From: an uncultured Allomuricauda sp. | GTDB taxonomy: Bacteria; Bacteroidota; Bacteroidia; Flavobacteriales; Flavobacteriaceae | Reading direction: 5' to 3' | Assembly: GCF_947495325.1 (NCBI RefSeq) | Contig: NZ_CANLYK010000002.1 | Coordinates: 930,001-994,000 of the forward strand | Length of the DNA: 64,000 nucleotides | In this document: positions 3,322-54,827 of the stretch, one piece after another | Numbering within the stretch: the stretch's first letter is position 1 | Layout of the letters: the number at the start of each line of letters is the position of its first letter | Notes under the pieces: model-generated | Databases searched by the model: none | What the model was told of the DNA's origin: nothing | What the model saw: only the letters and a program-made list of their open reading frames with translations | Translations under genes and position numbers: made by a program

Positions 3322-4262
3322 TGAAACACTATCTCTCCATATACGATGCCGATGATTTGACCCAATGGGTAGATGAGGCAATAGCCTTGAAGAAAGAACC
3401 AAAAAAATACAAATCCTTGGGAGCTGACAGAACCATATGTTTGTTCTTCTTCAATAACTCCCTTAGGACCCGTTTAAGTACCCAAAAGGCGGCCATGAAT
3501 TTGGGAATGGATGTTATGGTCATGAATTTCGGGAACGAAGGCTGGGCCTTGGAATATGGTGATGGAACCATTATGGGTGAGGGAAAATCGGAACATATCA
3601 AGGAAGCGGCACAGGTAGTTTCCCAATATTGCGATATTGTGGCCATCAGGGCATTCGCCAAATTGCAAGACAAAATAAAGGATGAAGCCGAGGAAGTACT
3701 GGAAGGATTTACCCAATATGCATCCATCCCTGTTGTGAATATGGAAAGTTCCGTTGCACATCCACTTCAGGCTCTTGCAGATGCCATCACATTGGAAGAA
3801 AACAATACTAAACCAAAACCAAAGGTTGTGCTGTCTTGGGCGCCACATCCAAAAGCTTTGCCACATGCTGTTGCCAATTCCTTTGTGAAAATGATGAAGC
3901 TCCAAAATGCGGAATTTGTCATTACCCACCCAGAGGGCTATGAGCTTGATTCACGAATCACAGAAGGTTGTACCATTGAACACAATCAGAAAAAAGCATT
4001 GGAAAATGCCGATTTTGTTTATGTGAAAAACTGGAGCAGTTATTCGGATTATGGGGAAGTGATACATCAGAATACGGATTGGATGATGACGGCGGAAAAA
4101 TTGGACAAGGCCAAGTTTATGCATTGTCTGCCCGTACGAAGAAATATGGTGGTGGAAGATGCCGTTCTGGATGGAAACCAGTCCTTGGTTATAGAACAAG
4201 CCAATAACAGGACGTTTTCGGCGCAAATTGTATTGAAAAAAATATTGGAGACTATTAAATAA
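3321..4262 (+). CDS. argF': N-succinylornithine (N-acylornithine) carbamoyltransferase
   Basis: Transfers the carbamoyl group from carbamoyl phosphate to an N-acylated ornithine, giving N-acylcitrulline. The 313 residues carry the carbamoyl-phosphate loop FNNSLRTRLS (about 44-53), HPLQALAD (about 149-156) and the C-terminal HCLPVRR. The sequence resembles the Bacteroides fragilis ArgF' type, not canonical OTCase, which would have STRTR and a DxxxSMG ornithine loop. At the position equivalent to Glu92 of the Xanthomonas acetyl-specific enzyme and Pro90 of the B. fragilis succinyl-specific enzyme, it has Ser90 (GKSEH). Serine there is compatible with succinyl specificity. The ATG overlaps the proB stop by one base. 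Confidence 0.92.
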   Translation: MKHYLSIYDADDLTQWVDEAIALKKEPKKYKSLGADRTICLFFFNNSLRTRLSTQKAAMNLGMDVMVMNFGNEGWALEYGDGTIMGEGKSEHIKEAAQVVSQYCDIVAIRAFAKLQDKIKDEAEEVLEGFTQYASIPVVNMESSVAHPLQALADAITLEENNTKPKPKVVLSWAPHPKALPHAVANSFVKMMKLQNAEFVITHPEGYELDSRITEGCTIEHNQKKALENADFVYVKNWSSYSDYGEVIHQNTDWMMTAEKLDKAKFMHCLPVRRNMVVEDAVLDGNQSLVIEQANNRTFSAQIVLKKILETIK

Positions 4263-5106: not shown

Positions 5107-6176
5107 CAATACATCAAGATATATTGACCCAAAAAGCGATTGAACTGCTGCAACAATTGATTTCGATTCCATCTTTTTCCGGGGAAGAAGACAAAACAGG
5201 AGATGCAATCCAAAAATGGCTAAATGATTTTGGCGTAAAAACAGAAAGGCAATACAACAACATTTACGCCTTCAACAAATATTTTGATGAAAGTAAGCCA
5301 ACATTACTGTTAAACTCTCATCATGACACGGTAAAACCAAATTCGGCCTACACCAAAGACCCTTTTAATCCACATATTGAAGATGGAAAGCTATATGGCT
5401 TGGGCAGCAACGATGCAGGAGGCTGTTTGGTTTCCCTTTTGGCAACTTTTGTCCATTTTTACGAGCGAGAAGACCTAAACCATAATATTATTATGGCCGC
5501 TACCGCCGAAGAAGAAGACGCCGGAGAAAAAAGTATACGGGCACTCTTACCCATTCTCCCTAATATTGATGTGGCGATTGTAGGCGAACCCACGCTATTG
5601 GATTTAGCCATTGCAGAAAAAGGCTTGGTGGTTTTTGATGCCGTTGTGGAGGGAACCCCTTCGCATGCCGCGCATCCAAATAATAACAACTCCATTTATA
5701 ATAGTATTGAAGTACTGAACTGGTTTAAAGATTATTCTTTTGAAAAGGTTTCAGATGCTTTGGGTGAGGTAAAATTGACGGTAACCCAAATTTCTGCCGG
5801 AAATCAGCATAATGTGGTTCCCGCACAGGTAGATCTAGTTGTGGATGTTCGGGTGAACGATTGCTATTCCAATCAGGAAATTGCGGATATTTTGCAAAAG
5901 GAAGCACCTTGTAAACTAACACCACGTTCCTTGCGGTTAAATTCGTCATCCATTGATCCAAATCATGATTTGGTAAAAAGTGGACTAGTATTGGGTCGAA
6001 AAACATACGGTTCCCCAACACTTTCGGATCAGGCGGCATTAAGCTGTCAATCCGTAAAATTGGGGCCAGGTGACAGTACCCGTTCCCATTCTGCCAATGA
6101 ATTTATTCATGTACATGAAATAGAGGAAGGAATTGATTTATACACAAAAATTTTAAAAGGATTTTTAACGCGTTAA
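5103..6176 (+). CDS. argE: M20-family N-acylornithine/N-acylcitrulline deacylase (ArgE type)
   Basis: Zinc hydrolase that removes the N-acyl group; with an ArgF' pathway the likely substrate is N-acylcitrulline, giving citrulline for argininosuccinate synthase. Zinc-ligand motifs are all present: SHHDTV (H74, with D75 two residues before V), GSNDAGG (D104), the catalytic AEEED (E136-E138), GEPT (E162) and a C-terminal HSANEFIHV. The 357 residues match the short bacteroidotal form. It overlaps argB by four bases, and the ACT gene follows one base after its stop. Specificity (acetyl or succinyl, ornithine or citrulline) is inferred from context. Confidence 0.9.
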   Translation: MTIHQDILTQKAIELLQQLISIPSFSGEEDKTGDAIQKWLNDFGVKTERQYNNIYAFNKYFDESKPTLLLNSHHDTVKPNSAYTKDPFNPHIEDGKLYGLGSNDAGGCLVSLLATFVHFYEREDLNHNIIMAATAEEEDAGEKSIRALLPILPNIDVAIVGEPTLLDLAIAEKGLVVFDAVVEGTPSHAAHPNNNNSIYNSIEVLNWFKDYSFEKVSDALGEVKLTVTQISAGNQHNVVPAQVDLVVDVRVNDCYSNQEIADILQKEAPCKLTPRSLRLNSSSIDPNHDLVKSGLVLGRKTYGSPTLSDQAALSCQSVKLGPGDSTRSHSANEFIHVHEIEEGIDLYTKILKGFLTR

Positions 6177-6177
6177 A

Positions 6178-6576
6178 ATGTCTGGAAAAACGAACTTATC
6201 GGAACTGCTCTCAGAAATGAATCCGCAATTACATGAAGGCGATTATGTTTTTGTTTCTGTAAGTGATTCATTTTCCATCAATTTGCATGATGTGTTGGCA
6301 AGTTTTAGGGAACAGGAAGGTGTTACACTTGTGTTGGAAAAGCAAAAGGCAGATGAATTGTCCTTGAAGTACCATTATGTTGCCTCGTGGATAACCCTTA
6401 ACGTACATTCGTCATTGGAAGCTGTGGGGCTTACCGCTGCCGTTTCAAAGGTGTTGGCGGAAAATAAAATTAGCTGCAATGTTGTGGCGGCTTATTATCA
6501 CGACCATATTTTTGTGGATAAACAAAATGATAAAAGGGCGATTGAGGTATTAGAACAATTGTCAAGAACGAATTAA
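6178..6576 (+). CDS. Small tandem-ACT domain protein inside the arginine operon
   Basis: A 132-residue soluble protein with no catalytic domain. Residues about 10-65 (HEGDYVFVSVSD...) and 70-130 (SWITLNVHSSLEAVGLTAAVSKVLAEN) look like two ACT-like beta-alpha-beta units of the DUF2241/ACT_7 type. The second half has the typical ligand-interface helix and ends in HDHIFVDKQNDKRAIEVLEQL. ACT domains usually bind amino acids, so a sensor or allosteric partner for arginine or proline enzymes is plausible, but no ligand can be read from sequence. It starts one base after argE and ends nine bases before argH, so it is surely cotranscribed with them. Confidence 0.8.
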   Translation: MSGKTNLSELLSEMNPQLHEGDYVFVSVSDSFSINLHDVLASFREQEGVTLVLEKQKADELSLKYHYVASWITLNVHSSLEAVGLTAAVSKVLAENKISCNVVAAYYHDHIFVDKQNDKRAIEVLEQLSRTN

Positions 6577-13931: not shown

Positions 13932-15281
13932 CTAGTTAATTTGAAAGATTCTTTTTAAACTTTTCTTTTTCAGTGCAATGGATTTACCAAAGTCCGAATT
14001 GTATTTTGAGACAACCTCTTGCTCATAATGCTTATAGAATTCGGGGTCAAAATTTGCATCTGATAGATGTTCAATAACATAATCAACGTCGCGTTCTTCG
14101 GTCAGCCATCTATCAAAAATTTCATGGCGCATCCGAATACCAAAAGTGTTAATGCCCAAGAATCGATTGTTTTCTTTGTTGAACGCTACAGTGATGCATA
14201 TTTTTTCACTGGAATGCCTCCAGTGAAAATGCTCCTCGTAGTCTTTTTTCCCTCTTTCTGAAAATACCCAACCATAGGTTTGGTATTCTATATCCAAGAA
14301 TTTTGCCGAATTGAACCAGTGACCTGGTTTGTATTCTAGTTTGTTTCCACAAATGGTTTGAGCTACTGTTTCGCCCATCATTCGTCCGGTATACCAAACG
14401 GCTTCAATGGGTCTTCTATTTCCAATGGCCTCATGCTGTTCTGCACAATCGCCAATGGCATAGATGTCTTTGATGTTTGTTTCTAAAAATCGGTTCACCT
14501 TAACACCACGGCCCAACTCAATCCCAGAATCCTTAAGGAAATCAATATTGGGAGTTACACCCGCGGTTAGTCCAACCATATCACAAGGAAGTTCTTCCCC
14601 AGTTTCGGCAATGATAACCGATTTAACACTACCGTTTTCATCAGAGACAATTTCTTTTAAATTGGTTCCCAGACGTAAATCAATATGGTGCTCTAAAATA
14701 TGTTCATTGATCATTTTTGATTCTCCGCTTGGAAGAACCCCGTTCCAAAAACTATTTTCTCTAACCAAAAATGTTACTGGAATATCCCTGCTTCGTAACA
14801 TTTCTGCCAGCTCTATGCCAATAAGCCCACCTCCAACAATTACAGCTCTTTTACAAACATCTTTATTGGGTGCATTAACTTCCAATAAATCTAGATCTTG
14901 CTTTGAGTATAGTCCTTGTACTCCATGTAAATCTTGACCGGGCCATCCAAATTTGTTAGGCTTTGATCCTGTAGCTAATATCAATTTATCATATTGTAGT
15001 GCCCTAGATCCATCTAAAAGAAGTTGCTTTTTTTCGGTATCCACATGGTTTACATAGGCTCGCACAAGTTCAATATTGTTTTTCTCCCAAAACCAATTTT
15101 CATAGGGTTGAATATGGTCAAATTTCATATGCCCCATATATACATACATGAGAGCAGTACGTGAAAAGAAATAATCAGTTTCTGCGGAAACAATAATGAT
15201 TCTTTTGTCGGAAAGTTTTCGAATATGTCTTGCTGCCGAGATGCCTGCAATTCCATTTCCGATAATTACAATGTTTTCCAT
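13932..15281 (-). CDS. NAD(P)/FAD-dependent pyridine-nucleotide-disulfide-type oxidoreductase
   Basis: A 449-residue flavoprotein with two Rossmann motifs: IGNGIAGISAARHI at the N-terminus (FAD) and VGGGLIGIELAEMLRS at about 148 (NAD(P)H), plus the second FAD contact DIYAIGDCAEQ near 284. There is no CxxxxC redox disulfide, so it resembles ferredoxin/rubredoxin/nitrite-reductase reductases more than thioredoxin or glutathione reductases. The C-terminal 130 residues (WFNSAKFLDIEYQTYGW..., FHWRHSSEKI) are unusual and rich in aromatics and histidines. It is first in the five-gene leftward operon and 237 bp from the divergent DUF547 gene. It probably feeds the neighbouring polyferredoxin. Confidence 0.88.
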   Translation of the reverse strand: MENIVIIGNGIAGISAARHIRKLSDKRIIIVSAETDYFFSRTALMYVYMGHMKFDHIQPYENWFWEKNNIELVRAYVNHVDTEKKQLLLDGSRALQYDKLILATGSKPNKFGWPGQDLHGVQGLYSKQDLDLLEVNAPNKDVCKRAVIVGGGLIGIELAEMLRSRDIPVTFLVRENSFWNGVLPSGESKMINEHILEHHIDLRLGTNLKEIVSDENGSVKSVIIAETGEELPCDMVGLTAGVTPNIDFLKDSGIELGRGVKVNRFLETNIKDIYAIGDCAEQHEAIGNRRPIEAVWYTGRMMGETVAQTICGNKLEYKPGHWFNSAKFLDIEYQTYGWVFSERGKKDYEEHFHWRHSSEKICITVAFNKENNRFLGINTFGIRMRHEIFDRWLTEERDVDYVIEHLSDANFDPEFYKHYEQEVVSKYNSDFGKSIALKKKSLKRIFQIN

Positions 15282-54117: not shown

Positions 54118-54245
54118 GGTTCATAGAATGATGCACCCTCAAATTATGACAATAAGTAGGTGCGAATCGTTAAAAGGAGGTTAAAGTTGGGGAAGAGTAA
54201 ATTTAGGAGAACCCGGAATTATAGCCTTTATTGTGAGTAGTTTTT

Positions 54246-54773
54246 TTATTCAGTTCGTTTGTAATTCAGTCCGGTTTTAAATCCACAAAAAGTTAGGAAA
54301 ATCAATAGTAATATTTGCATGTAAAAAAGAATGCTTGATAAAATTCCAAAATTATTATCCTTTGATTCTATTTCCTGTTCAATTTGCTCTAATCCTTCGC
54401 CAGCACTCAATGGTGGATAAATAGTCCAACCAGAAGTTTGTTGAACAAAGTTCTCCACAATTGTACTAATTCCATTCAGGATTATTATCAGTAAAGTTGT
54501 TGAAATTATTAAAATCAGATTAGCAGTCAGATTTTTAAAATTCCCGCGTAATGTTCGGATAAGGTAAATTCCAAAAAATACTAAAACTCCGAGCAAAATG
54601 ATAAAGTGAAAATTGGCAATCACAAAATAAGTGTCGTGAACATTTATGTCAAGAGTTGAGTCAGATTTCAGCCCATCAATTCCAAAAATCAGCGTATTCA
54701 AAATCAATACAAGCATTATCGTTCCAATCAGCCAAAATATTTCTTTTTTTTTCGGATTTTGTTTTTTAGACAT
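54246..54773 (-). CDS. Cox1-like mini-protein (two oxidase subunit I signatures, permuted)
   Basis: A 175-residue protein with about four TM helices (about 12-31, 50-72, 84-104, 144-166). Residues 46-57 read HDTYFVIANFHF, close to the haem-copper oxidase subunit I segment HDTY[YF]VVAHFHY. The histidine that would ligate the high-spin haem is replaced by N54, while H46, D47 and H56 remain. Residues 115-123 read GWTIYPPLS, which in real subunit I lies well before the HDTY segment, so the order is reversed. At one third of the family length and without other copper or haem ligands it cannot be a working oxidase. Start taken at ATG 54773. Function unknown. Confidence 0.72.
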   Translation of the reverse strand: MSKKQNPKKKEIFWLIGTIMLVLILNTLIFGIDGLKSDSTLDINVHDTYFVIANFHFIILLGVLVFFGIYLIRTLRGNFKNLTANLILIISTTLLIIILNGISTIVENFVQQTSGWTIYPPLSAGEGLEQIEQEIESKDNNFGILSSILFYMQILLLIFLTFCGFKTGLNYKRTE

Positions 54774-54827
54774 TATGCACAACAAGTATATATAGTTACC
54801 AACCAATATAAGAATATATGAACAATG

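Follow-up and report, generated by a model that had tools for sequence, protein, structure and literature searches.

A short gene in an uncultured Allomuricauda genome encodes a membrane protein with four predicted helices that descends from cytochrome oxidase subunit I (COX1), keeps COX1 loops on the periplasmic side and has lost most COX1 haem ligands. It belongs to a previously undescribed family whose members lie, at many loci, in integron-like cassette arrays, and whose best-kept loop tracks the COX1 of the host. We tentatively propose, with what we judge to be close to an even chance of being right, that these proteins are mobile mimics of a COX1 interface which dock on a COX1 partner and modulate the aa3 oxidase; we infer the partner, the binding and the respiratory effect from the features set out below. 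The literature searched contained no matching description of the family and nothing on short proteins with these motifs, most subscription papers lying outside the reach of the search.

The open reading frame (P0001, 175 aa; ATG start, TAA stop) occupies positions 54246-54773 on the minus strand of the window, the 64-kb stretch of DNA that was analysed; all features of the gene given below are on the same strand. Hydropathy predicts four transmembrane helices. The N-terminus is inside, with five Lys or Arg residues ahead of helix 1 (residues 12-30; 54684-54740), whose counterpart in a low-confidence AF2 model of P0001 spans residues 7-30. The loop LDINVHDTYFV (residues 41-51; 54621-54653) corresponds to the periplasmic loop between COX1 helices IX and X, with its Mg-site motif, and is identical to the host COX1. 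It leads into helix 2 (residues 51-69; 54567-54623), which hydropathy and comparison with COX1 identify at its start with COX1 helix X. A positively charged cytoplasmic loop, IRTLRGNFKNLTA (residues 72-84; 54522-54560; hydropathy and charge), precedes helix 3 (residues 87-105; 54459-54515), and R73, F79 and N85 are near-invariant within the P0001 subfamily. Between helices 3 and 4 lies GWTIYPPLSA (residues 115-124; 54402-54431), the periplasmic motif of COX1 loop III-IV, which is again identical to the host COX1 and is optional within the P0001 subfamily. Helix 4 (residues 142-160; 54294-54350) contains a conserved Q153, as in COX1 helix XII, and is followed by FKTG. By hydropathy and the positive-inside rule, the charges place both termini and the loop at 72-84 inside and both motif loops outside, the same side as in COX1. 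The AF2 model of P0001 (run on five sequences) was poor, with a pLDDT of 52.8, and the fold is only predicted.

A preliminary description of this DNA had read the protein as two COX1 signatures in reversed order, and both signatures are located where it placed them, HDTYFVIANFHF at residues 46-57 and GWTIYPPLS at residues 115-123; the strand, which it left out, is the minus one. The host COX1 (615 aa; L194) does have them the other way round, with GWTIYPPLSA at 171 and HDTYFVVAHFH at 426 (DSTLDINVHDTYFVVAHFH at about 418-436), but the mini-protein is not a rearranged COX1 domain. It is letter-for-letter identical to the local COX1 over DSTLDINVHDTYFV (14/14) and over GWTIYPPLSA (10/10). Across all fetched loci, which hold 3,634 distinct ORFs of >=80 aa, the pattern W[TS]xYPPLS is confined to COX1 (128 full-size sequences plus a partial one) and to six short ORFs that belong to the mini family, and is absent from the other ORFs, about 3,500 in number; this restriction excludes chance as the source of the motif. 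Profile-profile comparison with COX1 matched the first motif block at E 1.4e-11 and the second, of 11 residues, at E 5.5e-7. Once that 11-residue motif was taken away, neither helix 3 nor helix 4 by itself matched helix III or IV of COX1 in the same comparison. Since the helix adjoining GWTIYPPLSA is without a match to COX1 helix III, the reversed order points to a short transplanted or convergent motif. A whole-domain rearrangement joining helix X to helices II-IV, suggested by phmmer and hhalign, was dropped for the lack of a match in helices 3 and 4. The Pfam COX1 model matches P0001 over residues 19-69 only (E 3.3e-7; 29.9 bits against a gathering cut-off of 34.8), and TIGR02891 scores it at 30.5 against a cut-off of 670.75.

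Whole-genome searches recovered a family of short ORFs in Bacteroidia (~140-190 aa, four helices) that are separate from each genome's real COX1 (~600 aa). Two subfamilies were aligned: A1, comprising P0001 and its relatives (33 sequences, so far only from Flavobacteriaceae), and its sister A2 (29 sequences), present in Flavobacteriaceae and, through further members, in seven or more additional families of Bacteroidia. The spread is patchy; among the matches listed, from surveys that sampled subsets of genomes, members occur in roughly a quarter of congeners, Winogradskyella-like genomes being among these congeners, and in about 40 of 301 Flavobacteriaceae genomes. Pfam COX1 matched all 11 of the scanned A2 members and 6 of 10 A1 members. 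A2 is colinear from end to end with COX1 391-547, that is with helices IX-XII (E 2.4e-21, 145 columns), and the alignment extends through the F-P-x-F-D loop to two helix XII residues, Gln and Asn. A2 is therefore a free-standing C-terminal third of COX1. The two subfamilies have helix 1, the loop and helix 2 in common (E 9.4e-16), as well as the Gln of helix 4, and helices 3-4 of A1 have diverged past detection. The preliminary description's four-helix protein with a relation to COX1 is upheld. The F-P-x-F-D motif of the COX1 helix XI-XII loop, predicted to be periplasmic, is also kept by sister minis (L114 compared with L194).

WTxYPPLS is scattered over the A1 tree, including the distant Flavobacterium rakeshii, although this tree is poorly resolved; the scatter suggests that the motif is probably ancestral in A1 and was often lost, and it rules out a trait of a single clade. 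None of the 54 loci compared revealed a conserved operon partner or neighbour gene, or a link to the COX operon. One locus (L181) has two divergent mini-COX1 genes in tandem (5489-5968 and 5977-6465), and another, from one Winogradskyella-like genome (L116), has both subfamilies within ~10 kb (3731-4174 and 14018-14500).

Values of dN/dS among relatives range from 0.11 to 0.39, in pairs of up to 92% identity, which indicates purifying selection and hence that the mini-COX1 are working genes. Such values, found in pairs that close, and a motif conserved across many families sit badly with an inert relic, that is a decaying, functionless COX1 fragment hitch-hiking in cassette arrays. We consider a relic very unlikely, even though some copies are truncated, stop-bearing or uncertain in their starts (L143, L182, L161) and many of the genes in cassette arrays have no known use. 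In L002 and L161 the ATG homologous to the P0001 start is followed by an in-frame stop, and TTG or another start would be needed.

Across the family, haem ligands drift while the Mg-site loop, the periplasmic D-I-N-x-H-D-T-Y, stays. In A1, Y49 is present in 33/33 sequences, T48 in 31 (Ser in the other 2), D47 in 30, N44 in 30, D42 in 26 and H46 in 23. In A2, by its own numbering, D32, D37 and Y39 are present in 29/29 and H36 in 26. The preliminary description's point that the Mg-site HD pair remains is borne out in most relatives (H46 23/33 and D47 30/33 in A1; 26/29 and 29/29 in A2), and its assignment of the haem-ligand positions also holds: Asn54 (54612-54614) replaces the high-spin haem ligand (bovine COX1 His376), and His56 (54606-54608) stands in place of the low-spin haem ligand (bovine COX1 His378). 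Neither residue is fixed among relatives. Position 54 is Asn in 17/33 A1 sequences, with Asn, Tyr, Ser or Lys found there, and position 56 is His in 12/33, Tyr in 10 and Gln in 4, with Asp, Arg, Pro and others in the remainder; the low-spin-position His is present in 19/29 A2 sequences. The CuB helices are absent altogether, and P0001 does not carry the full set of CuB and haem ligands of COX1.

These counts bear directly on the suggestion that the protein is a haem-binding sensor or a haem-handling protein, in which H56, or two H56 in a dimer, would bind haem. P0001 does have H56, and His is the commonest residue at this position in both subfamilies. However, this sole remaining haem-ligand position is occupied by Tyr, Gln, Asp, Arg, Pro or others in most of A1, Asn, Tyr, Ser or Lys takes the place of the second ligand, and the residue survey of both subfamilies found no conserved axial haem ligand. 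The preliminary description had looked to the invariance of H46, D47 and H56 in homologues and would have counted loss of both H56 and the HD pair against itself; half of this was found, because no more than 12/33 A1 and 19/29 A2 relatives have His at position 56, and the HD pair is largely kept. As H56 is not conserved, we reject the haem sensor as the best reading and regard it as highly improbable.

The haem-propionate/Mg region beneath the CuA domain of COX2 is lined, in the bovine and Rhodobacter oxidases, by three elements of COX1: loop IX-X (D364, H368, D369), the GWT-motif residue Trp126 and, in loop XI-XII, Arg438/439. The mini-protein therefore displays pieces of one COX1 face.

The residue that follows D-I in the loop (P0001 position 44) varies in COX1 between Bacteroidia families. 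Mini and host COX1 agree at it in 8 of the 9 genomes, sharing N, Q, H, P or A, against 2.1 matches expected (exact permutation p 2.0e-4; p 6e-4 with one pair per family), a co-variation measured in A2, mainly in one column and over nine informative pairs, the hosts of A1 having a constant N in COX1. The matching pairs are N/N in Flavobacteriaceae, G843 and G785, Q/Q in G458 and G546, H/H in G637, P/P in G1085 and A/A in G961, and the mismatch is H vs Q in G1103. The column next to position 44 gives p 0.02. All 88 variable columns together yield 160 host matches vs 148 expected, which argues that the minis are not recent copies of the host COX1.

Phylogenetic trees place all minis on one side and all COX1 on the other (support 99/98 and 100/97). 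Forcing a mini to group with its own COX1 was rejected for f19 (p 0.0016), G961 (p 0.028) and G1085 (p 2.4e-5) and was not rejected for G637 (p 0.2). Most simply, the minis are a single old family, in which the loop has to suit some host component that suits COX1 too. COX1 fragments might instead be reborn repeatedly, by duplication and truncation in each lineage, in which case the loop match would reflect ancestry rather than co-evolution and the protein may do something unconnected with the oxidase, such as forming a divalent-metal site. The identity of residue 44 with that of the host COX1 and the grouping allowed for G637 are compatible with such repeated birth, and the long mini branches limit the tree tests and leave room for an origin from the local COX1. 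Nevertheless, there is no host-specific likeness outside the loop over the 88 columns, the minis fall on one side of the tree and grouping with the own host was rejected in three tests; we consider repeated birth unlikely.

Both the tracking of host COX1 and the retention of its periplasmic loops speak for a protein that acts on COX1 partners rather than for a haem sensor. The mini-COX1 is a small inner-membrane protein of four predicted helices that descends from COX1 helices IX-XII, the C-terminal third; most haem and copper ligands have been lost and the periplasmic surface loops retained. As an interface mimic, it would present the loop D-I-(host residue)-x-H-D-T-Y to the periplasm, and members of the P0001 subfamily may present the GWTIYPPLS loop as well. 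It could thereby bind the protein that normally recognises this COX1 surface, most likely COX2 (the CuA subunit) or a COX1-maturation factor, and might compete with, buffer or regulate the assembly or activity of the aa3 oxidase. Family members are carried between Bacteroidia as cassettes of integron-like arrays.

The same loops could also serve a decoy or immunity protein, displayed to absorb an outside agent that targets COX1, such as a bacteriocin, a secreted effector or a phage protein. This would account for the cassette mobility and for the exact copying of the host loop, and it agrees with the patchy distribution of this mobile cargo and with a residue 44 that tracks the host. We know of no agent that attacks this COX1 surface, however, and searches of plasmid, phage and viral-contig collections gave no mini-COX1 matches. 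Moreover, the conserved buried-type residues D42, T48 and Y49 would be needed equally by a structural Mg-site-like fold. We hold a decoy to be distinctly unlikely. Phage or plasmid cargo was rejected on the same null result in the collections searched.

At many loci the mini gene lies among small same-strand genes spaced by repeats of ~90-190 bases. The downstream flank is repeated within the locus for 14 of 54 minis; among control genes this holds for 5 of 224, and for 0 of 75 when the controls are small genes. Folded as DNA, the repeats form hairpins (z -2.5 to -5.6). In the arrays of L188, L264, L190 and L266, genes are accompanied by an attC-like hairpin repeat that recurs between unrelated genes of one array. 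The core that starts a cassette is complementary to the core after its own gene, with the pair GTTGTGCAT/ATGCACAAC in L001, L002 and L161 and a second pair, GTTAGCCAC/GTGGCTAAC, in L188 and L190. The cores read GTTGTGC and GTTAGCC and do not fit the attC core GTTRRRY.

The window's own mini gene keeps the 5' core GTTGTGCAT just ahead of its ATG (54775-54783), the same as in the cassette-borne relatives L001, L002 and L161, and has a decayed inverse core, CTCACAAT, just past its stop (54230-54237; TGCACAAC in relatives). No complete flanking repeat of this gene was found in the 64-kb window, and this copy does not itself qualify as a cassette. It is a lone copy away from a smaller array on contig 1 of the same genome (L265; G000:C1:1420500-1439500), which has small genes and stretches that match the same cassette repeats at 74-93%. 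A tyrosine recombinase of 355 aa (L265 3407-4471, minus strand) lies beside small genes there.

G139 contains at least 40 copies of the repeats, most of them in one ~68 kb run that has a tyrosine recombinase at its head and the mini near its far end (L264, G139:C1:3126500-3140500, and L188; more repeats at G139:C1:3130980-3198603 and 1554565-1566239). The recombinase heading L264 is XerA/IntI-like, co-directional with the array and has an N-terminal extension. G260 contains three sets of recombinase and array; a second recombinase type, of 305 aa and without the N-terminal extension, heads the mini-COX1-bearing array (L266/L161, G260:C1:3085525-3113587), and two further arrays are present in that genome. 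The mini of L001 and that of L167 come directly after a recombinase ORF that shares its N-terminus with an array-heading recombinase. In four loci the recombinase is adjoined by a small gene that begins like a zinc finger (CLNCRKKLKGRSDKKFC; L264 1492-1884, L266 7743-8144, L001 and L167), possibly an accessory part of the array platform. The array recombinases are IntI/Xer-like, lack the IntI-specific insert and score 206-210 bits vs a TIGR02249 cut-off of 265; one of them reaches NF040815 ('tyrosine recombinase/integron integrase'). None of 15 genomes has an IntI above the TIGR02249 cut-off, and a canonical IntI was rejected as the carrier integrase.

With IntegronFinder 2.0, a single complete integron was reported for Bacteroidetes proper, that of Salinibacter ruber (PMC9024848). 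Our loci suggest that Flavobacteriaceae commonly harbour integron-like cassette systems, against almost none in that published survey (PMC9024848), and the papers listed by our literature searches contained nothing on such arrays in Flavobacteriaceae. The full picture, in which mobile cassette-borne COX1 mimics would co-evolve with the host oxidase, occupy the COX1-COX2 (CuA/Mg-site) interface, reprogramme or protect respiration and owe their spread to an integron-like system of Bacteroidia that has not been described before, is possible but in our view doubtful. If the minis do act as interface mimics, small imitations of one face of the terminal oxidase pass between cells on cassettes. Aerobic respiration would then be regulated or guarded in a new way, and a natural four-helix piece of COX1 would be open to separate study. 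The co-variation at position 44 gives direct access to the question of which surface is engaged.

Among known systems, the mini family is like COX1/CtaD (PF00115, TIGR02891) in having the loop IX-X motif, the start of helix X and the loop III-IV motif GWTIYPPLSA, and A2, being colinear with helices IX-XII, is homologous to part of the COX1 fold. It differs in its size (175 aa and 4 helices, vs 12 in COX1), in lacking the CuB ligands, in having the haem a3 ligand replaced and the haem a ligand not conserved, and in carrying GWTIYPPLSA after helix X, whereas in COX1 this motif precedes helix X; P0001 also scores under the Pfam and NCBIfam cut-offs and does not contain the full domain of ~450-500 aa. 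The carriers of the minis resemble integron cassettes (attC, CALIN arrays) in consisting of single small same-strand genes with hairpin-forming repeats of ~90-190 bases, in the matching cores at both cassette ends (GTTGTGCAT/ATGCACAAC) and in the tyrosine recombinase that heads the array. Unlike those of integrons, their cores depart from GTTRRRY, their recombinase is without the IntI-specific insert and falls below the TIGR02249 cut-off, and in G139 and G260 it is co-directional with the array.
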